From positions 1 through 51,201 of the forward strand of contig VGUP01000004.1 of NCBI GenBank assembly GCA_016874175.1: DNA of 51,201 bases. Direction: 5' to 3'. The DNA is from Gammaproteobacteria bacterium (GTDB lineage Bacteria; Pseudomonadota; Gammaproteobacteria; Steroidobacterales; Steroidobacteraceae). Under the pieces are notes generated by a model that was not told where the DNA came from, did no database searches, and saw nothing but the letters and a program-made list of their open reading frames with translations. Shown one piece after another: positions 3,322-48,889 of this stretch; within the stretch, counting starts at the first letter, position 1, and every line of letters begins with the position of its first letter. Position numbers and translations under genes: made by a program.

Positions 3322-4113
3322 CTATGACCGTCGTGCAAGATCGAGGTAAATCGGTGTTTCGCCACCACCGTGCACGGCGATCTGCGCGCCGCTGACATAG
3401 GCCGCGAGGGACGAGCAAAGGAAAACACAGGTACCGGCGACATCCTTCGGCTCGCCCATGCGACGCAGTGGCAACATCTCGCCAATGCGCGCCACGCCTT
3501 CGCTGCCACCGTAATGCGCCAGTGAATTTGGCGTCGCGATCAGGCCGACGATGAGCGCATTGACACGAATATTCTTTGACCCCCACTCCATCGCCAGTGA
3601 CTCGGTGAGATTCACGAGCCCAGCCTTAGCGGCGCCGTAAGCCGCGCTCCAGGGCGAGGCGCGCACCGCCGAGACGCTCGCGATGTTGATGATGGAGCCG
3701 CCCGCCGGCTGTTGGTGCATCACCTGATAGGCTGCCTGGCTCATGAAAAAAGGCGCCGTGAGGTTCAGCTGTATGATCTTCTCGGTGAGCGCGGGGTCAG
3801 CATCCGCCGAGGGTACCTCGGCGCTGCCGCCGGCGTTATTGATGAGCGCATCGAGCCGACCGTACTTGGCGACGACGCGCTCGATCAGCGATCGACACTC
3901 GGCAACCTTGCGCACGTCGCAGCTGCGGTAATCGACTGTCCGGTCGGCATACCGCGGCAGCTCCGCAGGGGCGCGACGCGAGCAGGCGACCACGGTCGCC
4001 CCCGCCTCCAAAAATCGCACGCTGATGCCCGCACCGATGCCGCTTACGCCGCCGGTGACCAGCACCACCTTGCCGGTAAAATCGAGTACCCCGTCCAGTT
4101 GATTGCCCCGCAC
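3322..4113 (-). CDS. Short-chain dehydrogenase/reductase
   Basis: ORF 3322..4170; probable GTG start at 4113 (VRGNQLDGVLDFTGKVVLVTGGVSGIGAG); YGAAK active site. Start codon uncertain because the operator-like inverted repeat begins at 4119. Confidence 0.8.
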   Translation of the reverse strand: MRGNQLDGVLDFTGKVVLVTGGVSGIGAGISVRFLEAGATVVACSRRAPAELPRYADRTVDYRSCDVRKVAECRSLIERVVAKYGRLDALINNAGGSAEVPSADADPALTEKIIQLNLTAPFFMSQAAYQVMHQQPAGGSIINIASVSAVRASPWSAAYGAAKAGLVNLTESLAMEWGSKNIRVNALIVGLIATPNSLAHYGGSEGVARIGEMLPLRRMGEPKDVAGTCVFLCSSLAAYVSGAQIAVHGGGETPIYLDLARRS

Positions 4114-4118
4114 GGCGA

Positions 4119-4150
4119 ATGCGTAAAAAAATGCTATGTTATTTACGCGT
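4119..4150. promoter_or_regulatory. Operator-like inverted repeat, site A: ATGCGTAAAA-AAATGCTATGTT-ATTTACGCGT
   Basis: 7-bp perfect arms GCGTAAA (4121-4127) and TTTACGC (4142-4148), 28 bp end to end, in the divergent SDR / acyl-CoA ligase promoter region; same geometry as sites B, C and E. Confidence 0.7.
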
Positions 4151-4216
4151 AACGACGATTCTAGTACCAATTCATACGTCGGTCGCGAATTTTTCGACAG
4201 GGGTCAGCGACGAATC

Positions 4217-5782
4217 ATGCAATCGGAGGGCCTCAACACCCTACCGGGCGCCCTTGCCCGGGCCGCAGCCACGTATGGCGGGTTGATCGGCATCGAGGAC
4301 GGCTCACAGCGCCTGTGCTTCGTCGAGCTCAAATCCCTCGTCGATCAAACCGCCGCGGCCTTTGTGGCCTCCGGAATTCGGGTGGGCGATCGCATCGCCA
4401 TCTGGGGTCCAAATGCCGCGAGCTGGATCATTGCGGCGCTCGGTGCGCAGTCGGCAGGCGCCGCCATCGTTCCGCTCAATACCCGGTTCAAGGGTCGCGA
4501 AGCGGGCTATATCTTGCGTCGCAGCGGCGCCCGCATGCTCTGCTACTCGGGCCGCTTTCTGGGTATCGACTTCGCCGGACTCCTGAAGGACGAATCGCTG
4601 CCCGAGCTGCACGAACTCATCGAACTCGACTCTTCCGCGTGGGCAAATTTCTTGATGCGGGCCACGCCGCAAACAGAGGTTGAAGTCACAACGCGACTGG
4701 CGAAACAGCGCCCGGAGGATCTCGCCGATGTGATGTTCACCTCCGGAACCACGGGCGCGCCCAAGGGTGTGATGGCGAGCCACGGGCAAAACGTTCGTGT
4801 CTTCAGCGAGTGGAGTTCCATTATCGGACTCGGCCCACAAGATCGATATCTCATCGTCAATCCGTTTTTCCATGCCTTTGGTTACAAGGCTGGCTGGCTG
4901 TCCTGTCTGCTGACGGGAGCGACCATCCTGCCGATGGCCGTATTCGACGCCGCAGAGGTCATCCGCCGGATCGCGGCGGATCGCATCAGCGTGCTGCCTG
5001 GCCCGCCCACGCTTTTTCAATCGATGCTCGCGCATCCCTCTCTCGATCGCGCGAGCACCTCGAGCTTGCGCCTCGCGGTCACGGGCGCCGCCAACGTGCC
5101 GGTTTCTCTGATCGAGCGGATGCGTGACAAGCTCGGCTTCAAGACCATTGTCACGGGCTATGGACTCACCGAATCGACTGGCACGGTCAGCATGTGCCGA
5201 CCCGGCGACGACCCGCAGACCATCGCGCAAAGTTGCGGCGCACCGCTGCCGGGCGTCGAAGTCAAGGTGGTCGACGATGCCGGTCGCGAACTACCGCGCG
5301 GCAGCGAAGGCGAACTTTGGGTGCGCGGCTACAACGTGATGCAGGGTTACCTCGACGACGCCGAGGCCACCGCCGCGGCAATCGACAGCGAGGGCTGGCT
5401 GCACACCGGCGATATCGGCACCATGGATACGCATGACTACCTGCGTATCACCGATCGCAAGAAAGACATGTTTATCACCGGCGGTTTCAATTGTTACCCC
5501 GCCGAAATCGAATCTTTGATCAGCGCCCACCCTGCCGTGGCGCAGGTCGCGGTGGTCGGCATCGCCGATGAGCGCTTGGGCGAAGTGGCTGCCGCCTACG
5601 TGGTGCTGCGTCCGACGGTAAAGCTCGAGCCGTCTGATTTCATTGCCTGGTGTCGCGACAACATGACCAACTACAAAGTGCCGCGGCGCGTGCATTTCGT
5701 AGATCAACTGCCGACGACCGCTTCGGGGAAAGTACAGCGATACGCCCTGCGCTACACCCACGACGGCGCGCGCAAGGCTTGA
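4217..5782 (+). CDS. fadD3: Acyl-CoA ligase, FadD3-like (HIP-CoA ligase)
   Basis: Start MQSEGLNTLPGALARAAATYGG at 4217; VMFTSGTTGAPKGVMASHGQ, DRYLIVNPFFHAFGYKAGWLSCLLTGATILPMAVFD, ITDRKKDMFITGGFNCYPAEIE; very like remembered M. tuberculosis FadD3. Confidence 0.75.
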   Translation: MQSEGLNTLPGALARAAATYGGLIGIEDGSQRLCFVELKSLVDQTAAAFVASGIRVGDRIAIWGPNAASWIIAALGAQSAGAAIVPLNTRFKGREAGYILRRSGARMLCYSGRFLGIDFAGLLKDESLPELHELIELDSSAWANFLMRATPQTEVEVTTRLAKQRPEDLADVMFTSGTTGAPKGVMASHGQNVRVFSEWSSIIGLGPQDRYLIVNPFFHAFGYKAGWLSCLLTGATILPMAVFDAAEVIRRIAADRISVLPGPPTLFQSMLAHPSLDRASTSSLRLAVTGAANVPVSLIERMRDKLGFKTIVTGYGLTESTGTVSMCRPGDDPQTIAQSCGAPLPGVEVKVVDDAGRELPRGSEGELWVRGYNVMQGYLDDAEATAAAIDSEGWLHTGDIGTMDTHDYLRITDRKKDMFITGGFNCYPAEIESLISAHPAVAQVAVVGIADERLGEVAAAYVVLRPTVKLEPSDFIAWCRDNMTNYKVPRRVHFVDQLPTTASGKVQRYALRYTHDGARKA

Positions 5783-16541: not shown

Positions 16542-16672
16542 TGTATATGCCCCCGTCGACCCCATGACGGTGCCCAACGATAGTGCGTTTTCGCGGAAGC
16601 GGCAAACCCGGCTCGTAGAACCAGCCGCCGAAAACGATGGAGAATGCGATTTCCGGCCGCCCGAACGTTCAA

Positions 16673-16704
16673 ATGCGTAAAAAGATCGTCCGTATTTTAC
16701 GCAT
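16673..16704. promoter_or_regulatory. Operator-like inverted repeat, site B: ATGCGTAAAA-AGATCGTCCGTA-TTTTACGCAT
   Basis: Perfect 10-bp arms, 12-bp spacer; divergent hsaD-like / hsaA-like region. Confidence 0.8.
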
Positions 16705-16790
16705 CACGCTTGCGCAGCCCCACCCCCGGCGCTAGCATCGACACGGGGTTAGACACTCTTCAGCCTCAGACATCTATCAGGGGGATCACC

Positions 16791-17993
16791 ATGGCTACCG
16801 CCGCCGCCCACGTTTTCGAGGATCAGATTCCGACACGCGCCGAACTCGTTCGTCGCGCCCGCGCCATGTTGCCCGCGCTCAAAGCGCGACAGACCGAGGC
16901 CTACACCAATCGTCGACTGCCGGCTGAGACCGTGCACGAAATAGTCGAGGCCGGCTTCTTCCGCATCTTGCAGCCGAAGCGCTACGGCGGCTACGAGATG
17001 GATCCGCAGGTTTTCTTTGATGTGCAGATGACGCTGGCCGAGGCTTGTATGTCCACGGCTTGGGTACTCGGCGTGGTCGGCTGCCATCCCTACCAGCTCG
17101 CGCTGTTCGATGATCGGGCGCAGGCCGAAGTGTGGGGGTCGAACTCCGACACGCTCGTCAGCTCGTCGTATCAGCCGGTCGGCAAAGTCGAGGTTGTCGA
17201 GGGTGGCTTCAGGCTTTCGGGCCGCTGGGGCTTCTCGAGCGGCAGCGAATATTGCGATTGGATCCTGCTCGGCTCGCTGATTTTTAATAAAGATGGTCCG
17301 CCCGAGATGCGCACCTTCCTGTTGCCGCGCAAGGACTACAAGATTCTCGACAACTGGCACACCTTCGGCATGCAAGCCACGGGTAGCCAGGACATCGTGG
17401 TCGAAAACGCCTTTATTCCCGAGTACCGCACGCACAAAGCCATCGACGGCTTCATGTGCAAAAACCCGGGTCAGGCGGTCAACACCGGCCCGCTATACAA
17501 GTTGCCTTGGGCGCAGGTGTTCGTTCGCTCCGTCTCGACGGCGAGCATCGGTGCCGTACAGGGTGCGCTTGATGCTTTCGTCGACGTCGGCAAGAAGCGC
17601 GTGTCGACCAACACCGGCAAGGCCACCAAACAGGATACGAGCGCGATCCTCGCCGCTGCGCGCACGCAGTCGGCGGTGGACGAGATGAAGACTCTGCTCT
17701 ATCGCAATTTTGACGAGATGATGGCGACGGTGCGTGCAGGCGGCGAGCTCACCATGGAGCAGCGCGTGCGTTATCGCTACCAGTCCTCGCAGATCGGCCG
17801 CCGCTGCGCCGACCTCATCGACGATCTGATGCCGCTGCTCGGCGGCCGCGCGATCTACACCGACAGCCCGATCATCCGTTACTGGCTAGACGCCAATGCG
17901 GCGCGTGCGCACGTCGCCAACGACCCGAACCTGATCGGCTCGACGCTCGGCGGCATGTACATGGGCGAGCAGCCCCAAGATTTCTTCGTGTGA
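16791..17993 (+). CDS. hsaA: Flavin-dependent monooxygenase oxygenase subunit (HsaA/TesA2-like)
   Basis: Start MATAAAHVFEDQIPTRAELVRRARAMLPALKARQ at 16791; ACAD-fold C-terminus LGGRAIYTDSPIIRYWLDANAARAHVANDPNLIGSTLGG. Confidence 0.85.
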   Translation: MATAAAHVFEDQIPTRAELVRRARAMLPALKARQTEAYTNRRLPAETVHEIVEAGFFRILQPKRYGGYEMDPQVFFDVQMTLAEACMSTAWVLGVVGCHPYQLALFDDRAQAEVWGSNSDTLVSSSYQPVGKVEVVEGGFRLSGRWGFSSGSEYCDWILLGSLIFNKDGPPEMRTFLLPRKDYKILDNWHTFGMQATGSQDIVVENAFIPEYRTHKAIDGFMCKNPGQAVNTGPLYKLPWAQVFVRSVSTASIGAVQGALDAFVDVGKKRVSTNTGKATKQDTSAILAAARTQSAVDEMKTLLYRNFDEMMATVRAGGELTMEQRVRYRYQSSQIGRRCADLIDDLMPLLGGRAIYTDSPIIRYWLDANAARAHVANDPNLIGSTLGGMYMGEQPQDFFV

Positions 17994-17997
17994 CGCC

Positions 17998-19074
17998 ATG
18001 GCCAAGACCGCGGACTACAACATAGGACCGCACACCTTCCCGCGCGGCTGGTTCATGATCGGCATCTCGAGCGAGATCACCGACCAGCCGCAGGGCGTGC
18101 GCTATTTCGGGCGCGATTTTGCGCTCTATCGCGGCAAGAAAAGCGGCAAGGTCATTCTGCTCGATGCGTATTGCCCGCACATGGGCACGCACCTCGCCAA
18201 AAATAAAACGTCATATACGGCGCGCGACGGGCATGTGATCGACGATGACATCCAGTGCCCCTATCACGCCTGGCGTTTTGGCGCGGACGGTCGTTGCAAT
18301 CACATCCCCTATTACAACGGCGTGATTCCCAAGGCGGCCAGCGTTAAAAGTTGGCCGGTGCGCGAGCATGCCGGACTCGTTTTCATGTGGCACGACCCCG
18401 AAGGCGGCGAACCCGACTTCGACCTGCCGGCACTCAGCGAATACGGCCAGCCGCATTGGGTGCCGTGGAATGTCGACAAACTCGGCGTGATGGCGAGCCA
18501 TCCGCAGGAAGTCATCGACAACATCGCCGACTTGCCGCACCTCGGCCCAATCCACGGTTCAACCGTGGAATACTTTGAGAACGAGTTCCGTGGACACAAG
18601 GCTATTCAGCGTCAGGCCGGTGGCCATCGCACGCTGGTCGCGGGGCCCAACGACAAGCTTTACACCGACACGGTCTATCACGGCCCCGGAATTCTGGTCT
18701 CGCATCTCACCGGACTTTTTGACACCGTGCTGCTGATCGCGCACACGCCGGTGGACGATGGCGTGATCGAGGTCTGGCACGCCCTGCTCGTCAAAACGCC
18801 GAACGCGGTGCCAACTGATGCCGATCGCGAGGCCGCGCGCGGCTTCAATGAATCGAGCCGACTCGCGTTCCTGCAAGACTTCGAGGTCTGGGGTAACAAG
18901 CGCGCCGCGATCAACATCCTGCAGATTCCGACCGACGGCCCCTTTCACAAGGCCCGCATCTGGTACAAGCAGTTCTATCACCCGCGCAGCGAAGCCAAGC
19001 GCATCATCGGACCGATTGAGGGTGTGCACGTGGTTCCTGGCACACCGGGTTGGCCGCTTGATCGCGTGTCCTGA
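17998..19074 (+). CDS. Rieske oxygenase, KshA-like (3-ketosteroid 9alpha-hydroxylase oxygenase family)
   Basis: Rieske CPHMGTHLAK...CPYHAWRFGADGRC; iron site DNIADLPHLGPIHG; starts 4 bp after hsaA-like gene. Confidence 0.8.
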   Translation: MAKTADYNIGPHTFPRGWFMIGISSEITDQPQGVRYFGRDFALYRGKKSGKVILLDAYCPHMGTHLAKNKTSYTARDGHVIDDDIQCPYHAWRFGADGRCNHIPYYNGVIPKAASVKSWPVREHAGLVFMWHDPEGGEPDFDLPALSEYGQPHWVPWNVDKLGVMASHPQEVIDNIADLPHLGPIHGSTVEYFENEFRGHKAIQRQAGGHRTLVAGPNDKLYTDTVYHGPGILVSHLTGLFDTVLLIAHTPVDDGVIEVWHALLVKTPNAVPTDADREAARGFNESSRLAFLQDFEVWGNKRAAINILQIPTDGPFHKARIWYKQFYHPRSEAKRIIGPIEGVHVVPGTPGWPLDRVS

Positions 19075-22179: not shown

Positions 22180-22211
22180 TTGCGTAATTTCGATTGACAT
22201 GGATTACGCGA
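22180..22211. promoter_or_regulatory. Operator-like inverted repeat, site C: TTGCGTAATT-TCGATTGACATG-GATTACGCGA, enclosing a TTGACA -35-like box (22194-22199)
   Basis: Arms GCGTAAT (22182-22188) and ATTACGC (22203-22209), 28 bp end to end; between MFS (-) and TonB receptor (+). Confidence 0.65.
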
Positions 22212-26684: not shown

Positions 26685-27164
26685 TTAGCCGTCGCGCTTG
26701 CGAGTGATGATCTTGGCGACGCGGTGATCGTATTTCAGCGTCGACACGGCGATGGAGGTCTCGACATGACGTACACCGGGCAGCGCCAGAATGCGATTAT
26801 GGGCGATCGAGACAATCTCTTCGAGCGAACTGAAGAGGCCGATGCAGAGGATGTCATAGCGACCCGCCATCGCGATCACGCAACCGATCTCGCGCATTGC
26901 CGAGATGCGCGAACAAAGATTTTGTACTTCGTTGAGCTGCGCCTGAATGCCGATCAGCACCACTTTGGGCGCGCCGATGGAGGCTACGTTCGTCACTGCG
27001 GTGAAGCGGATGAGGTTAGCGGCCTCGAGACGCTTGATGCGGCCCCGCACCGTGCCTTCGGTGACACCCAAAGATTGTGCAAGCAGGCGATTGCTCGCCC
27101 GCGCATCGCTCGTAAGCTTGTCTATGATCCTGCGATCCAGTTCGTCGACGATGTACTCGATCAC
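26685..27164 (-). CDS. Lrp/AsnC family transcriptional regulator
   Basis: VDELDRRIIDKLTSDARASNRLLAQSLGVTEGTVRGRIKRLEAANLIRFTAV; probable GTG start at 27164 overlapping upstream stop (GTGA). Confidence 0.85.
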   Translation of the reverse strand: MIEYIVDELDRRIIDKLTSDARASNRLLAQSLGVTEGTVRGRIKRLEAANLIRFTAVTNVASIGAPKVVLIGIQAQLNEVQNLCSRISAMREIGCVIAMAGRYDILCIGLFSSLEEIVSIAHNRILALPGVRHVETSIAVSTLKYDHRVAKIITRKRDG

Positions 27165-27643
27165 GATATCGGCGCCACTTCGAAGTTGTACTTCACGACC
27201 TCGGCCGCGATCCCGCACTCGATGCTGCGTATGCCCTTGATCTTGGCAATGTCGCGCAGCAGCAGTGAATGCAATTCATCGAAATCGTGCAAAGCGACAA
27301 GCGTCTCGATGTCGCGCGCACCGGTCACTACATGCACGCTAAAGACCTCTGGCAGGCGCGCAAGCTCATGGGCGACATGCTCTGCCGGCCGGCCCTGCAC
27401 TTGCACGCCGACCGCCAGCAGCACCTTGTAGCCGATCGCGGCAAAGTCGGTGACGGCCACGACCTTCATGGCCTTGGAATTCTCGAGCCTGCGAATGCGG
27501 GCGCTGACCGTGGCGGCGGCCATGCCGAGCTTACGAGCGAGTTCCTGGTTGGTCGCGCGACCGTCCTTGCGCAGCAGCGCAATGATTTTTTGATCGACCT
27601 CGTCGAGCTGGATCGTGGGAGCCTGTTCGTTGACCTTGGCCAT
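27161..27643 (-). CDS. Lrp/AsnC family transcriptional regulator
   Basis: LDEVDQKIIALLRKDGRATNQELARKLGMAAATVSARIRRLENSKAMKVVAVTD. Confidence 0.88.
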   Translation of the reverse strand: MAKVNEQAPTIQLDEVDQKIIALLRKDGRATNQELARKLGMAAATVSARIRRLENSKAMKVVAVTDFAAIGYKVLLAVGVQVQGRPAEHVAHELARLPEVFSVHVVTGARDIETLVALHDFDELHSLLLRDIAKIKGIRSIECGIAAEVVKYNFEVAPIS

Positions 27644-40075: not shown

Positions 40076-40969
40076 TCATGCCGGCGGTGGCGACCACTTG
40101 TGACCCCAGGTGTCGGCGATCAGGCTGCGAGTTGGCACCCAAGTGCTCCAGTCCGGCGTCAGCCCCATGCAGCCGACTTCGAGATCGAAGCCGCCGGGCG
40201 TGGCGACATAGAAGCTGATCATCCCATCATTCGAGTGTCGGCCCAGCGACGAAGAAATGTGATACCCAGCGGCGACACAGCGATCGAGTGCGCGACCGAC
40301 ATCATCGATATCGCGCATCTCGACCATGGTGTGCACGAGGCCCGAGGGCACCGGCATCGGAATGAGCGCGAGACTGTGGTGACGCCGACAGCTCGCGTGC
40401 AGAAAACGGATGCACAGCTCGGGCACGGCAGGATCCGGAGACATCACGAGACGCATCTCGTCGGTGTCACCGAAGCCGAGCAAAGATTTGTAGAAGTCGA
40501 CGCTGCGCTCGAGCTGCGGCGCCGGCAGCACCACATGGCCCGTGCCGAGATCGCCGGTGACGAAACCGGATACGCCCTGCGAAGACATGAACGGGTCGTA
40601 GCCGCGGAAGCGGCCCCAATAAAGTTCGAAGGCGTTACCATCGGGATCGGTGCCTGCCACCAGACCATGGGCGCAACGCGCTTTGAGTTCTACGGCGCTA
40701 CCATCTTGCAGCGCGACGCCGGCGGTGCGCGAACGTTTTACGGTCGCGTTGAATTCGGCCTCGCTCGGCATCTCCCAACCGGCGGCGATAAAACGATCGG
40801 CCTCGCCTTTTTCGATGACGAAGCGGAACGGCCGATCATCGGTCCGCAGCCACAAGCTGCCGTCCGGCGCCTCTGCCGGCATCATGCCGATGACCTCGAC
40901 GCCAAAACGACGCCACGGCGCAAGATCACGCGCCATGACTCGAACGTAACCTAGTGAGTGAACCGCCAT
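40076..40969 (-). CDS. hsaC: VOC-family extradiol dioxygenase, HsaC-like
   Basis: Two VOC modules; metal-ligand type positions GTGHVVLPA, GLVHTMVEMRD and GGFDLEVG. Confidence 0.82.
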   Translation of the reverse strand: MAVHSLGYVRVMARDLAPWRRFGVEVIGMMPAEAPDGSLWLRTDDRPFRFVIEKGEADRFIAAGWEMPSEAEFNATVKRSRTAGVALQDGSAVELKARCAHGLVAGTDPDGNAFELYWGRFRGYDPFMSSQGVSGFVTGDLGTGHVVLPAPQLERSVDFYKSLLGFGDTDEMRLVMSPDPAVPELCIRFLHASCRRHHSLALIPMPVPSGLVHTMVEMRDIDDVGRALDRCVAAGYHISSSLGRHSNDGMISFYVATPGGFDLEVGCMGLTPDWSTWVPTRSLIADTWGHKWSPPPA

Positions 40970-41117
40970 CTTGCAACCCCTTTTGCGACAAGTCGCCTTG
41001 CGCAGATCAACGTCACCGCGCCAAGTTTATGAAACCACGTCTGCAACCCTTATTTTTGCGCGATTATGGTATCCGCAGGGGCTGTAATCATCAACTTCAT
41101 CAATTTTTTACATGTTT

Positions 41118-41127
41118 TTTTACGCAT
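41118..41127. promoter_or_regulatory. Half-site of the shared operator motif (site D): TTTTACGCAT
   Basis: Identical to the right arm of site B; the expected left arm (41096-41105, TTCATCAATT) is poorly matched. Lies in the divergent hsaC/ipdAB operon vs OYE region. Confidence 0.4.
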
Positions 41128-45340: not shown

Positions 45341-47062
45341 TTACGATGCGCTGTATCGACGGCGCAGTTGTACCTTGTCGACCTTGTCGAGATGGTTGCG
45401 CGGCAAAGCTTCGTGCTGAACCAAAACTTCGGTGGGCACCTTGTAGGCCGCCAAGTGCGCCGCAACATGCTGCTTCACCTCATCGCCGGTAATGAGCCCC
45501 GCCGAGGCATGAGGTTCGACGATCGCCATCAGACGCTCGCCGAGTCGGGAATCTGGCACGCCAAAAGCCACCGCTTCCGCGAGACCCGGATGTGCGAGCA
45601 GTACCCGCTCGACCTCGGCGCAATAAATATTCTCGCCCGCAGAGATCACCATGTCCTTCTTGCGATCGACAATATAAAGGAAACCGTCGGCATCGAGATA
45701 GCCGATATCACCCGAGCGCATGAAGCCTTCGTTGTCGAAGGCGCGCGCTGTCTCCTCGCGATCGCCCCAGTACTCGAGCATGTTTGAAACCGACCGCATG
45801 CAGATCTCGCCCGCTTCGCCCGGCGCGGCGAGGCTGCCGTCTTCAAGCACGATTTTGACGAGTGTCGTGTCGAGCATCCGCCCGGCGGTCCCCGGATGCG
45901 CGAGATATTCTTCGCCCACCGACATGGCCACCGCACCCGTGGTTTCAGTCATGCCGAACCCGGTGCCGGGTACGGCATGCGGGAACGCTTTAGCGATTTC
46001 GCTGAGCATGCCCGCCTGCAAGGCCTGACCGCCCGTCGAGACGCTGGTCAAAGATTTGAGATCGTACTGCGAAATATTTGGCGAACGCAGCAGGTCCCAC
46101 ATCATGGTCGGCACACACGGAAACTGCGTCACTTTCTCGGTTTCGATAAGCTGCAATGCCGCAGCCGCATCCCACCGCCGCATCAAGACAATCTTGCCGC
46201 CGCGCACCAGCGTCGATAGCAGGCCGGTGTGCAGACCGCTGGTGTGAAAGAACGGGAACATGAGCAGCATGCAGGTCTGCGGTGACATGGCCGCAAGCTG
46301 CTCGAGCGTCATGCCGTAGCGGGCCGCCATGTTAGCAGCGATGCGGTACCCGGCATAGAGATTGGTCCACACCGAATTGCTCGTGCCCCAGTGACTGAGC
46401 ACCGCACCCTTCGCGCGACCGGTGGTCCCAGAAGTAAACAGGATGGTCGCAGGATCGAGGGGCTCGACCGACGGCGCGGCCGGGCCGGCATTCGCGGGAG
46501 CTTCGGCCAGCAGATCGGCAAGGCGCACGGCCCCCGCAGCGACCGCCGCATCGATCACGGCAAATTCGCGCTGCCGATCATCACCGCTCAAAGAATCATC
46601 CGCCGCCACCATGAGCGGACAGGTGGCAGGATGAGTCGCGAGCTCTCGCGCGCAGCGGCTGTCCGTGATCAGCAGTGAAACCCCGGTGCCATCGCGCGCC
46701 GCCGCGAGCTCATCGCCTGAAGCGCGACTGTTCATCGCCACTGGGATGGCGCCAAGGCGGACGAGCGCCAAAAACGCGTACACCCACTCCGGCAGGTTAC
46801 GCATGGCGAGTCCGACACGACTCCCCGCCCCGATCGAGCAGTGTGACTGCAGGGCGTACGCGAGACGATCGACGGTAGAGGACAAATCGCGGTAGCTCAG
46901 CCGCAACGGGCCGTAGACGATGGCAATAGCGTCCGAATTCCAGGGGACAGCCTTGAGCAGCGCCGGCAGAGTCCGGGGCGCACGACTGAACACGCGGCAG
47001 CGGTAGCCGCGAACCAGCTCTTCGACGAGCTCGAATTGCCCTTCCGTTGACACCCCGACCAC
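45341..47062 (-). CDS. Acyl-CoA ligase (AMP-binding)
   Basis: ILFTSGTTGRAKGAVLSHWG; GYLDADGFLYIVDRKKDMVISAGENIYCAEVERVLLAHP; GTG start. Confidence 0.9.
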   Translation of the reverse strand: MVGVSTEGQFELVEELVRGYRCRVFSRAPRTLPALLKAVPWNSDAIAIVYGPLRLSYRDLSSTVDRLAYALQSHCSIGAGSRVGLAMRNLPEWVYAFLALVRLGAIPVAMNSRASGDELAAARDGTGVSLLITDSRCARELATHPATCPLMVAADDSLSGDDRQREFAVIDAAVAAGAVRLADLLAEAPANAGPAAPSVEPLDPATILFTSGTTGRAKGAVLSHWGTSNSVWTNLYAGYRIAANMAARYGMTLEQLAAMSPQTCMLLMFPFFHTSGLHTGLLSTLVRGGKIVLMRRWDAAAALQLIETEKVTQFPCVPTMMWDLLRSPNISQYDLKSLTSVSTGGQALQAGMLSEIAKAFPHAVPGTGFGMTETTGAVAMSVGEEYLAHPGTAGRMLDTTLVKIVLEDGSLAAPGEAGEICMRSVSNMLEYWGDREETARAFDNEGFMRSGDIGYLDADGFLYIVDRKKDMVISAGENIYCAEVERVLLAHPGLAEAVAFGVPDSRLGERLMAIVEPHASAGLITGDEVKQHVAAHLAAYKVPTEVLVQHEALPRNHLDKVDKVQLRRRYSAS

Positions 47063-47145: not shown

Positions 47146-47177
47146 ATGCGTAAAGATCGCTATCGGTTTATACGCAC
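47146..47177. promoter_or_regulatory. Operator-like inverted repeat, site E: ATGCGTAAAG-ATCGCTATCGGT-TTATACGCAC
   Basis: GCGTAAA (47148-47154) and TATACGC (47169-47175, one mismatch), 28 bp end to end; between ligase (-) and SDR (+). Confidence 0.7.
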
Positions 47178-47213: not shown

Positions 47214-47990
47214 ATGGGTCGTCTTGCCGGTCGAGTTGCCCTCATAACCGGGGCCAGTCAAGGAATTGGGGCCGCTATCGCAGCGCGCTTTGCCGCCGAG
47301 GGTGCGCATGTCGCCCTTTGCGCACGTCGCGCCGAACCACTCGAGGCCAGGGCGGCCGCCATTCGGGCGAGCGGCGGCTCGGTCAGCCAGCGCGCCTTCG
47401 ATGTCGCGGACCACGCGGCGCTCGCCGATTTCGTCGCTACGACGGCTGCGCAGCACGGGCGGCTCGACGTGTTGGTCAATAACGCGCCGTCGGTCACCTA
47501 CTCGGCGATCGTCGACATGACCCCGGAAAGTTTTCGTAAAGATTTCGAGGTCAACGTCAACTCGGCTTTTGTCGCCACGCGTGAAGCGTTCAAGGTGATG
47601 CTGCCCGCGCAGCGCGGCTCGATCATCAATATTTCTTCGATCAACGGGCTCTTAGGGCTCGGTAACATGTCGGCCTACGGCGCGGCCAAAGCCGCTCTTA
47701 TCCACTTCACCAAATGTGCCGCCATGGAGGGTGCTCGCGCCAATGTTCGCGTCAATGCGATCGCGCCGGGTGTCATCAATACGCCGGCGACCGTAGCAGG
47801 CTTTGCGGGACCCTACGCAGACTGGGGCAAGAAGATCGCGAGTCAAGTACCGATGGGTCGCTTCGGCGAAGCCCATGAAATCGCCGGCGTCGCGCTATTT
47901 TTGGCCAGCGACGACTCGGCCTATGTCACCGCGACCTGTATTTCGGCAGATGGCGGCAAAGCGGCAGAACTCGTCGTCCCTCCGCCCTAA
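47214..47990 (+). CDS. Short-chain dehydrogenase/reductase
   Basis: GRVALITGASQGIGAAIAARFAAEGAHVALCARR; VLVNNAPS; YGAAKAAL. Confidence 0.88.
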   Translation: MGRLAGRVALITGASQGIGAAIAARFAAEGAHVALCARRAEPLEARAAAIRASGGSVSQRAFDVADHAALADFVATTAAQHGRLDVLVNNAPSVTYSAIVDMTPESFRKDFEVNVNSAFVATREAFKVMLPAQRGSIINISSINGLLGLGNMSAYGAAKAALIHFTKCAAMEGARANVRVNAIAPGVINTPATVAGFAGPYADWGKKIASQVPMGRFGEAHEIAGVALFLASDDSAYVTATCISADGGKAAELVVPPP

Positions 47991-48061: not shown

Positions 48062-48889
48062 ATGTCACTTTCAGGCAAGGCAGCTTTGGTTACTGGCGCG
48101 GGTCAGGGCATCGGGCGCGCTTGCGCACTTGCCCTCGCCGAAGCCGGCGCACGAGTCGCCGTTTTTGATCTCAAGCAGGAATCCGCTGACGCCACCGTCG
48201 CCACGCTGCCGAATCCCACCGCGCACTTGGCGATTGCCGGCAACGTAGCCGACAGCGCTGCGGTCAAAGCCGCTTTTGCGCAAGCCGTGGCGGCGTTTGG
48301 GCGGCTCGATGTGCTCGTCAATAATGCCGGCACCGGCACTGGCCCGAACGACGGTAGCGCCAAAATGTACGAGCTGATGGCGCAGCGTAACGCCGAACTC
48401 GCGCGTGGCGAAACACCCAAGACCCATGTCGAGCAAACCGTCTTCATGGAAGACGAAGGCTGGCGCGCGGTGATGGCTGTCAATCTCGACGGTGCTTTCT
48501 TTTGCGCGCGCGAGGCGCTGCGCGTTATGGCCGAAAAAAACATCAAGGGCTCGATCATCAATATCGCCTCCACGGCCGTGCAGTCGGGCGAAGGTCCCGT
48601 GCACTACGTCACCAGCAAGGCAGCGCTAGTCGGCATGACCCGCGCCCTCGCCCGCGAAGTCGCCTCACGCGGCATCCGTATCAATGCCGTGGCCCCCGGC
48701 CCCACCGACACCCCGCTCATGCGCTCCATTCCCGACGAATGGATTGCAAGCCTCGAAAAAGCCATCCCACTCGGCCGTCTCGCGAAGCCTGCCGAAGTTG
48801 CGGCAGCCGTACGCTTTCTCGCGAGTGACGAGGCCTCGTACGTGACCGGCAGTGTGCTGGTCGCCAACGGCGGCTCGTATTTCTTTTAA
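48062..48889 (+). CDS. Short-chain dehydrogenase/reductase
   Basis: GKAALVTGAGQGIGRACALALAEAGARVAVFD; VLVNNAG; YVTSKAALVGMTRA; YVTGSVLVANGG. Confidence 0.9.
   Translation: MSLSGKAALVTGAGQGIGRACALALAEAGARVAVFDLKQESADATVATLPNPTAHLAIAGNVADSAAVKAAFAQAVAAFGRLDVLVNNAGTGTGPNDGSAKMYELMAQRNAELARGETPKTHVEQTVFMEDEGWRAVMAVNLDGAFFCAREALRVMAEKNIKGSIINIASTAVQSGEGPVHYVTSKAALVGMTRALAREVASRGIRINAVAPGPTDTPLMRSIPDEWIASLEKAIPLGRLAKPAEVAAAVRFLASDEASYVTGSVLVANGGSYFF

Follow-up and report, generated by a model that had tools for sequence, protein, structure and literature searches.

Known regulators and the system described here

Among the bacteria that degrade steroid hormones and bile acids, both of them widespread pollutants, are sphingomonads and their relatives. 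In proteobacteria, control of the steroid pathway is, to our knowledge, described for only a few cases (TesR/TeiR and EdcR). The known steroid regulators are TetR proteins (KstR, KstR2, and EdcR) and the Comamonas set. In actinobacteria, the TetR repressors KstR and KstR2 govern cholesterol degradation. Like their regulons, the system described here would control the 9,10-seco pathway throughout its cluster, with a palindromic operator that recurs in many promoters and proposed sensing of a metabolite; on the other hand, it has a pair of Lrp/AsnC proteins instead of a TetR protein, and its operator spans 30 bp rather than 14 bp and has a different sequence. EdcR of the sphingomonad Caenibius tardaugens is likewise a regulator of steroid degradation with a palindromic operator, but it belongs to the TetR family, recognizes another operator, and controls only the edc cluster of estrogen genes. 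The testosterone SD cluster of Caenibius was reported without a nearby regulator (PMC6895838).

The proteins that we discuss below share their architecture, an AsnC-type helix-turn-helix (HTH) followed by a RAM effector domain, with the Lrp/AsnC family (E. coli Lrp and AsnC, archaeal FL11, LysM, and BarR). They differ from these relatives in three respects: a single, sharply conserved bipartite palindrome takes the place of clustered degenerate sites, the two paralogues are always paired, and the targets are genes of steroid catabolism. In Sphingobium sp. Chol11, two contiguous Lrp/AsnC genes (NCHOL11_RS15865/RS15860) lie in the bile-salt catabolic cluster; a role in amino-acid metabolism was guessed for them, and no operator, targets or regulon were named (PMC12882949, 2026). 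Judging by its description, this tandem pair is very likely the same system. In open-access papers, we found no earlier description of the TGCGTAA operator or its regulon in connection with steroids or Lrp. Against that literature, the operator architecture and the regulon thus appear to be new, and the Lrp/AsnC regulator family is known.

Putative operator sites in the window and in related genomes

The window, the whole 51,201-nt stretch of DNA that we analyzed, contains four mirror-image TGCGTAA-N16-TTACGCA sites (termed A, B, C, and E) in divergent promoters of a steroid-degradation cluster. Site B, starting at 16674, matches this pattern perfectly, and sites A (4120), C (22181), and E (47147) each have one mismatch. 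A preliminary description of this DNA had listed the same four sites, and all of its sequences lie where it had placed them, between the divergent genes that it had named: a short-chain dehydrogenase (SDR) and a FadD3-type ligase (A), hsaD and hsaA (B), an MFS transporter and a TonB receptor (C), and a ligase and an SDR (E). Its common arm-to-arm span is also borne out: GCGTAA to TTACGC covers 28 bp in all four sites, the mismatch in site E falling within an arm (ATACGC). The distance of 21 bp that it gave between arm centers is right for 7-bp GCGTAAW arms and becomes 22 bp for 6-bp arms, whereas the search pattern that it proposed, with a 14-bp gap, finds nothing: the correct gap is 16. With up to one mismatch allowed, TGCGTAA-N16-TTACGCA matches the window four times and never matches in 100 dinucleotide shuffles.

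Site A (4120..4149) is located between the SDR gene (3322-4170, minus strand) and the gene for the FadD3-type acyl-CoA ligase (4136-5782, plus strand), whose true start is probably near 4217. The site recurs on the redundant contig C85 (matrix score 33.2), its arms are invariant across three species, and its orthologue in G011, a genome of another genus, is found at position 33079 of contig C16. Site B (16674..16703) separates an hsaD-like operon on the minus strand from hsaA-kshA on the plus strand. Its targets are an HsaA-like monooxygenase oxygenase subunit (16791..17993, plus strand; NCBIfam NF045629, 8.6e-120, below the curated cut-off) and a KshA-type 3-ketosteroid 9alpha-hydroxylase oxygenase (17998..19074, plus strand; Pfam KshA_C, 3.2e-61). 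Sites orthologous to B precede hsaA in G074, G204, G131, G156, G111, and G123 and on contig C138. The longest hsaA open reading frame starts ahead of operator B and runs across it (16644-16790 in the window); because conservation suggests a true start near 16791, automatic annotation may overextend this gene. Site C (22181..22210) lies between the MFS transporter (minus strand) and the TonB-dependent receptor (plus strand), and its spacer contains TTGACA. Site E (47147..47176) is flanked by genes for an acyl-CoA ligase (45341-47062, minus strand) and an SDR (47214-47990, plus strand); its counterpart in G011 (contig C33, position 6326) has the ligase orthologue on one side and, on the other, an SDR that is most similar to the one at 48062-48889.

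A position weight matrix trained solely on loci outside the window's closest relatives ranked the same four sites highest in the window (C, 36.6; A, 33.2; B, 33.0; E, 20.5), and the best score in 3 Mb of shuffled sequence was 16.9. The fifth-best match, at 13.1, is a degenerate site, D (41097..41126), between the hsaC operon (minus strand) and an OYE-family gene (plus strand); its right arm, TTTACGCA, is intact, and its left arm, TTCATCAA, is degenerate. In alignments, both the intact arm and the TTCRTCAA arm are kept in G074 and G204. The operon behind site D starts with a gene for an HsaC-like extradiol dioxygenase (40076..40969, minus strand; NCBIfam NF045631, 1.2e-80, below the curated cut-off). 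All four sites listed earlier are real, but the list lacked site D and two conserved sites that lie elsewhere in the genome. Both of the latter are kept in three species, including G074 and G204. Site F, outside the window (L218:4446, corresponding to position 16446 of contig C18 in G000; L066:16944; L205), is found between a SnoaL-like gene and genes of the HsaG/HsaF type (acetaldehyde dehydrogenase and aldolase), and site G (L219:568, corresponding to position 568 of contig C156 in G000; L220:7954; L199) lies ahead of genes for a family III CoA-transferase and a putative secreted protein.

In the organism's own 2.56-Mb assembly, seven matches with up to one mismatch were found, compared with none for a reversed control. 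Four of them are in the window, and the other three are on redundant or homologous contigs, corresponding to site A (C85), site C (C243), and a diverged hsaD/hsaA copy (C138) in which both arms are kept and the spacer differs; at this stringency, matches are confined to the window and its duplicate or homologous contigs. Parts of the window cluster recur, nearly unchanged or as homologues, on four short contigs of G000 (C85, C138, C169, and C243), and a fifth, C111, carries such a copy of part of contig C18; these copies reflect either a mixture of strains or a true duplication within the assembly. Allowing three mismatches gives 82 matches versus 70 for the control, which is background level, so a relaxed scan hides the signal. 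A loose pattern, GCGTA-N18-TACGC, was also tried and rejected, its counts being at or below control in most genomes.

Comparison of orthologous promoters in genomes of the same order, another check proposed in the preliminary description, revealed the same four sites in the same, syntenic promoters of G074 and G204, which belong to the same genus. Intergenic alignments show conserved arms, and the inner spacer varies most at sites B, D, and E. Three other genomes of the genus (G139, G150, and G188) have neither hsaA nor the Lrp pair described below, and no convincing, AT-flanked site of the TGCGTAA-N16-TTACGCA type was seen in them. G011 has three sites, of which two lie at the promoters equivalent to those of A and E, and the third, which is weaker, precedes a KshA gene. 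In genus g10 (G131 and G156), sites precede hsaA and, by approximately 50 bp, lrp1 itself; G131 also has a strong site upstream of hsaC, the counterpart of the site D position. In other families of the order, matches with one mismatch occur at control level, and the regions matched in two such genomes (G049 and G066) contain no homologues of the window.

The Lrp1-Lrp2 pair and its association with the motif

According to the preliminary description, the regulator could not be identified from the window. Yet two adjacent genes for Lrp/AsnC-family regulators are found inside the same cluster, and they track the motif: lrp1 (27161..27643, minus strand), whose product is the proposed operator-binding protein, and, directly downstream, lrp2 (26685..27218, minus strand; homologous part approximately 26709-27149). 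Both proteins contain an AsnC-type HTH (PF13404, 2.0e-12 and 6.3e-16) and a C-terminal RAM/AsnC_trans_reg ligand domain (PF01037, 6.0e-10 and 5.5e-12), all above the gathering score. Tandem pairs of AsnC-fold proteins are also known among enzymes, namely the siroheme decarboxylases NirD/L-AhbA/B, and the two proteins could in principle be enzymes of this kind rather than regulators. We consider this very improbable: the siroheme-decarboxylase model is absent among the Pfam matches, which are to AsnC-type HTH and AsnC_trans_reg, the recognition helices of both Lrp1 and Lrp2 are conserved (in Lrp2, GVTEGTVRGRIKRL), the solved structures nearest in sequence are those of transcriptional regulators, and the genomic context is one of steroid genes. 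On domains, we reject a siroheme decarboxylase identity.

Both genes lie within a long co-directional gene run headed by hsaC. Directly before lrp1 in the window, there is no strong operator. The operon that holds the pair presumably has its promoter at the degenerate site D, so autoregulation of lrp1-lrp2 is likely but weaker. The mirror-tree correlation between the two proteins is high (r = 0.93), as expected from shared ancestry, and is no proof of a complex. In one locus (L170:15578-16668), a second, diverged tandem pair resembling Lrp1-Lrp2 (32% and 29% identity) was detected near the first.

An alignment of Lrp1 served as the query against genomes, each species being represented by one, and yielded 178 relatives; we analyzed the best 80 of these 178 loci, which come mainly from Sphingomonadales, together with Caulobacter, Brevundimonas, and gammaproteobacterial bins. 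Two of the records, L104 (CAMCBU010000011.1) and L108 (CALPVO020000292.1), are titled Klebsiella pneumoniae and Janthinobacterium lividum, and at this locus they are close to the steroid-degrading lineage studied here; these names look like mislabels. By script, the lrp1-lrp2 tandem was found in 79 of the 80 loci, the remaining one having lrp2 with a truncated match to lrp1, and a steroid-pathway marker was present inside the flank examined in 62 of the 80. At a spacing of 16, the 1.39 Mb of DNA around these pairs contains 11 copies of the motif without mismatch, 49 with one, and 72 with two. None of the other spacings between 0 and 40 exceeds 0, 3, and 9 copies, respectively, and a control with reversed arms averages 0.05, 0.37, and 4.1. 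Of the 132 sites, 131 are intergenic, although 92% of this DNA was predicted as coding by the hexamer-model gene caller used for these calls. Nothing was found in favor of chance, an artefact of composition or a coding repeat, apart from the background-level count at three mismatches in the organism's own genome; given the empty shuffles, the enrichment of spacing 16 alone in other organisms, and the intergenic location of the sites, such an explanation has a negligible probability. The genes directly downstream include kshA (32), OYE (32), SDR47-like (27), TonB receptor (20), hsaC (13), and hsaA (10). For example, in Caulobacter sp. Root343 and Brevundimonas terrae, sites are dotted along hsaC-ipdAB, hsaA-hsaD-hydratase, lrp1-lrp2, kshA, and the TonB receptor. 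No site with a matrix score of at least 15 was found within the flank examined in 14 of the 80 loci, several of these flanks being short. In the gammaproteobacterial genus g6 (L074, L076, L077, and L231-L233), the pair is kept and the hsaA-promoter sites are weak, the one in G107 having a spacer one base longer; operator drift is possible in this genus.

Does the motif accompany the regulators or the steroid genes? In three genomes of other families where hsaA is present and a close pair is absent (G420, G482, and G471, the last with only a distant Lrp match of 33%), motif counts do not exceed control and hsaA has no strong site. In G502, from yet another family, the pair is directly upstream of hsaA, and sites score 25 and 37.9. 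In genomes with the pair, no site accompanies a second hsaA paralogue, and sites are present at pair loci without steroid markers nearby. From the negative controls and the marker-free loci, we conclude that the motif tracks the regulator pair and not steroid genes as such. The earlier proposal of an operator of a steroid-catabolism regulon is thus strongly supported: the site recurs in orthologous promoters across genera and classes, is almost purely intergenic, and is missing where the regulator pair is missing.

Co-occurrence of this kind could also arise if a third regulator, not linked to the pair, travelled along with it. Specifically, the sites might be operators of an unlinked regulator of the TetR type, or another type, with the Lrp pair as a passenger or a second layer. 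The known steroid repressors KstR, KstR2, and EdcR are TetR proteins (PMC8700777), and TGCGTAA-N3-TTACGCA is the operator of SGR3979, a TetR protein of Streptomyces (PMC3511530). However, its spacing is 3 rather than 16, and this operator has no match in the window even with two mismatches allowed. The KstR (TnnAACnnGTTnnA) and KstR2 (AnCAAGnnCTTGnT) operators, in the form given in the preliminary description, have no window matches either, in agreement with its view that the motif is unlike both, and the EdcR operator (TnnCnnTACnAnTnGTAnnGnnA) has none with one mismatch allowed. No TetR gene turned up among those open reading frames of the window that were annotated, and the candidate regulators there are of the AsnC type; the motif accompanies the Lrp pair even at loci that have no steroid markers; and its presence at the lrp1 promoter in genus g10 also counts against an unlinked TetR regulator, which we regard as unlikely. 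Judging by conservation, position, and co-occurrence, it is highly probable that the repeats serve as operators for Lrp1 and Lrp2, an Lrp/AsnC regulator whose two genes lie in this very cluster; its binding, oligomer, effector, and sign of regulation are what we infer.

Promoter geometry and a proposed mode of regulation

In 17 of 18 TonB-receptor promoters of alpha- and gammaproteobacteria (window site C at 22181-22210 together with L102-L180, from the window's genus to sphingomonads), TTGACA, a -35 element, lies between the operator arms and always at the same offset. A protein bound to the arms would cover it, which favors repression at these promoters. At sites B and D, conserved hexamers resembling -35 and -10 elements start approximately 6 bp downstream of the arm (alignments inspected by eye), and a weaker peak of TTGACA matches appears at offset +2 across species. 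Because the -10 boxes are weak, these promoter calls are uncertain. A position just upstream of the -35 element is also used by activators, and activation is possible at hsaA and OYE, where the site has this position. In a variant of our explanation, the Lrp pair would be an activator rather than a repressor, the operator just upstream of -35 recruiting polymerase when the metabolite is bound. The hexamers past the arm at B and D and the +2 peak speak for this variant; the -35 element inside the operator at nearly all TonB-receptor promoters favors occlusion instead, and with weak -10 boxes we view it as possible but rather doubtful. Dual regulators are common in the Lrp/AsnC family, and a dual regulator would fit both promoter layouts.

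We propose that Lrp1 and Lrp2, which probably assemble from two dimers into a hetero-oligomer, bind both GCGTAA arms; these would lie on one face of the DNA, separated by two helical turns. Two dimers per operator, with both proteins contributing, is the simplest reading, because the genes are strictly paired and both recognition helices are conserved. Adjacent dimer sites in the Lrp family are spaced by two or three turns, and the only Lrp-DNA cocrystal available to a 2010 review contained a single dimer on a 13-bp palindrome (PMC2995911). The arms described here, 21-22 bp apart, are wider than that palindrome, and therefore the binding mode would not be that of a simple dimer. The ligand of the C-terminal RAM domain would be a steroid-pathway metabolite that alters DNA binding and relieves repression at the TonB-receptor promoters. 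Such an effector is suggested by the content of the regulon, and comparison with KstR2 and HIP-CoA makes an intermediate of the pathway the most natural candidate. The regulon would cover uptake (TonB receptor and MFS transporter), activation (acyl-CoA ligases and SDR), ring opening (kstD, kshA, hsaA, hsaC, and hsaD), and lower steps (hsaG/hsaF and CoA-transferase III).

In its most far-reaching form, which we put forward tentatively as a serious possibility, Lrp1-Lrp2 would be an obligate hetero-oligomeric sensor of steroid metabolites and, in alpha- and gammaproteobacteria alike, the master regulator of the 9,10-seco pathway; it would act through a bipartite two-turn operator and would have spread with the steroid genes. 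A shared operator and a two-protein regulator make the regulon directly testable in cultured Caulobacter, Brevundimonas, Sphingorhabdus, and Novosphingobium. The operator could be used for finding steroid genes and as a source of parts for steroid biosensors, and the pair would represent a case of Lrp-family regulators adapted to a pathway other than amino-acid metabolism.
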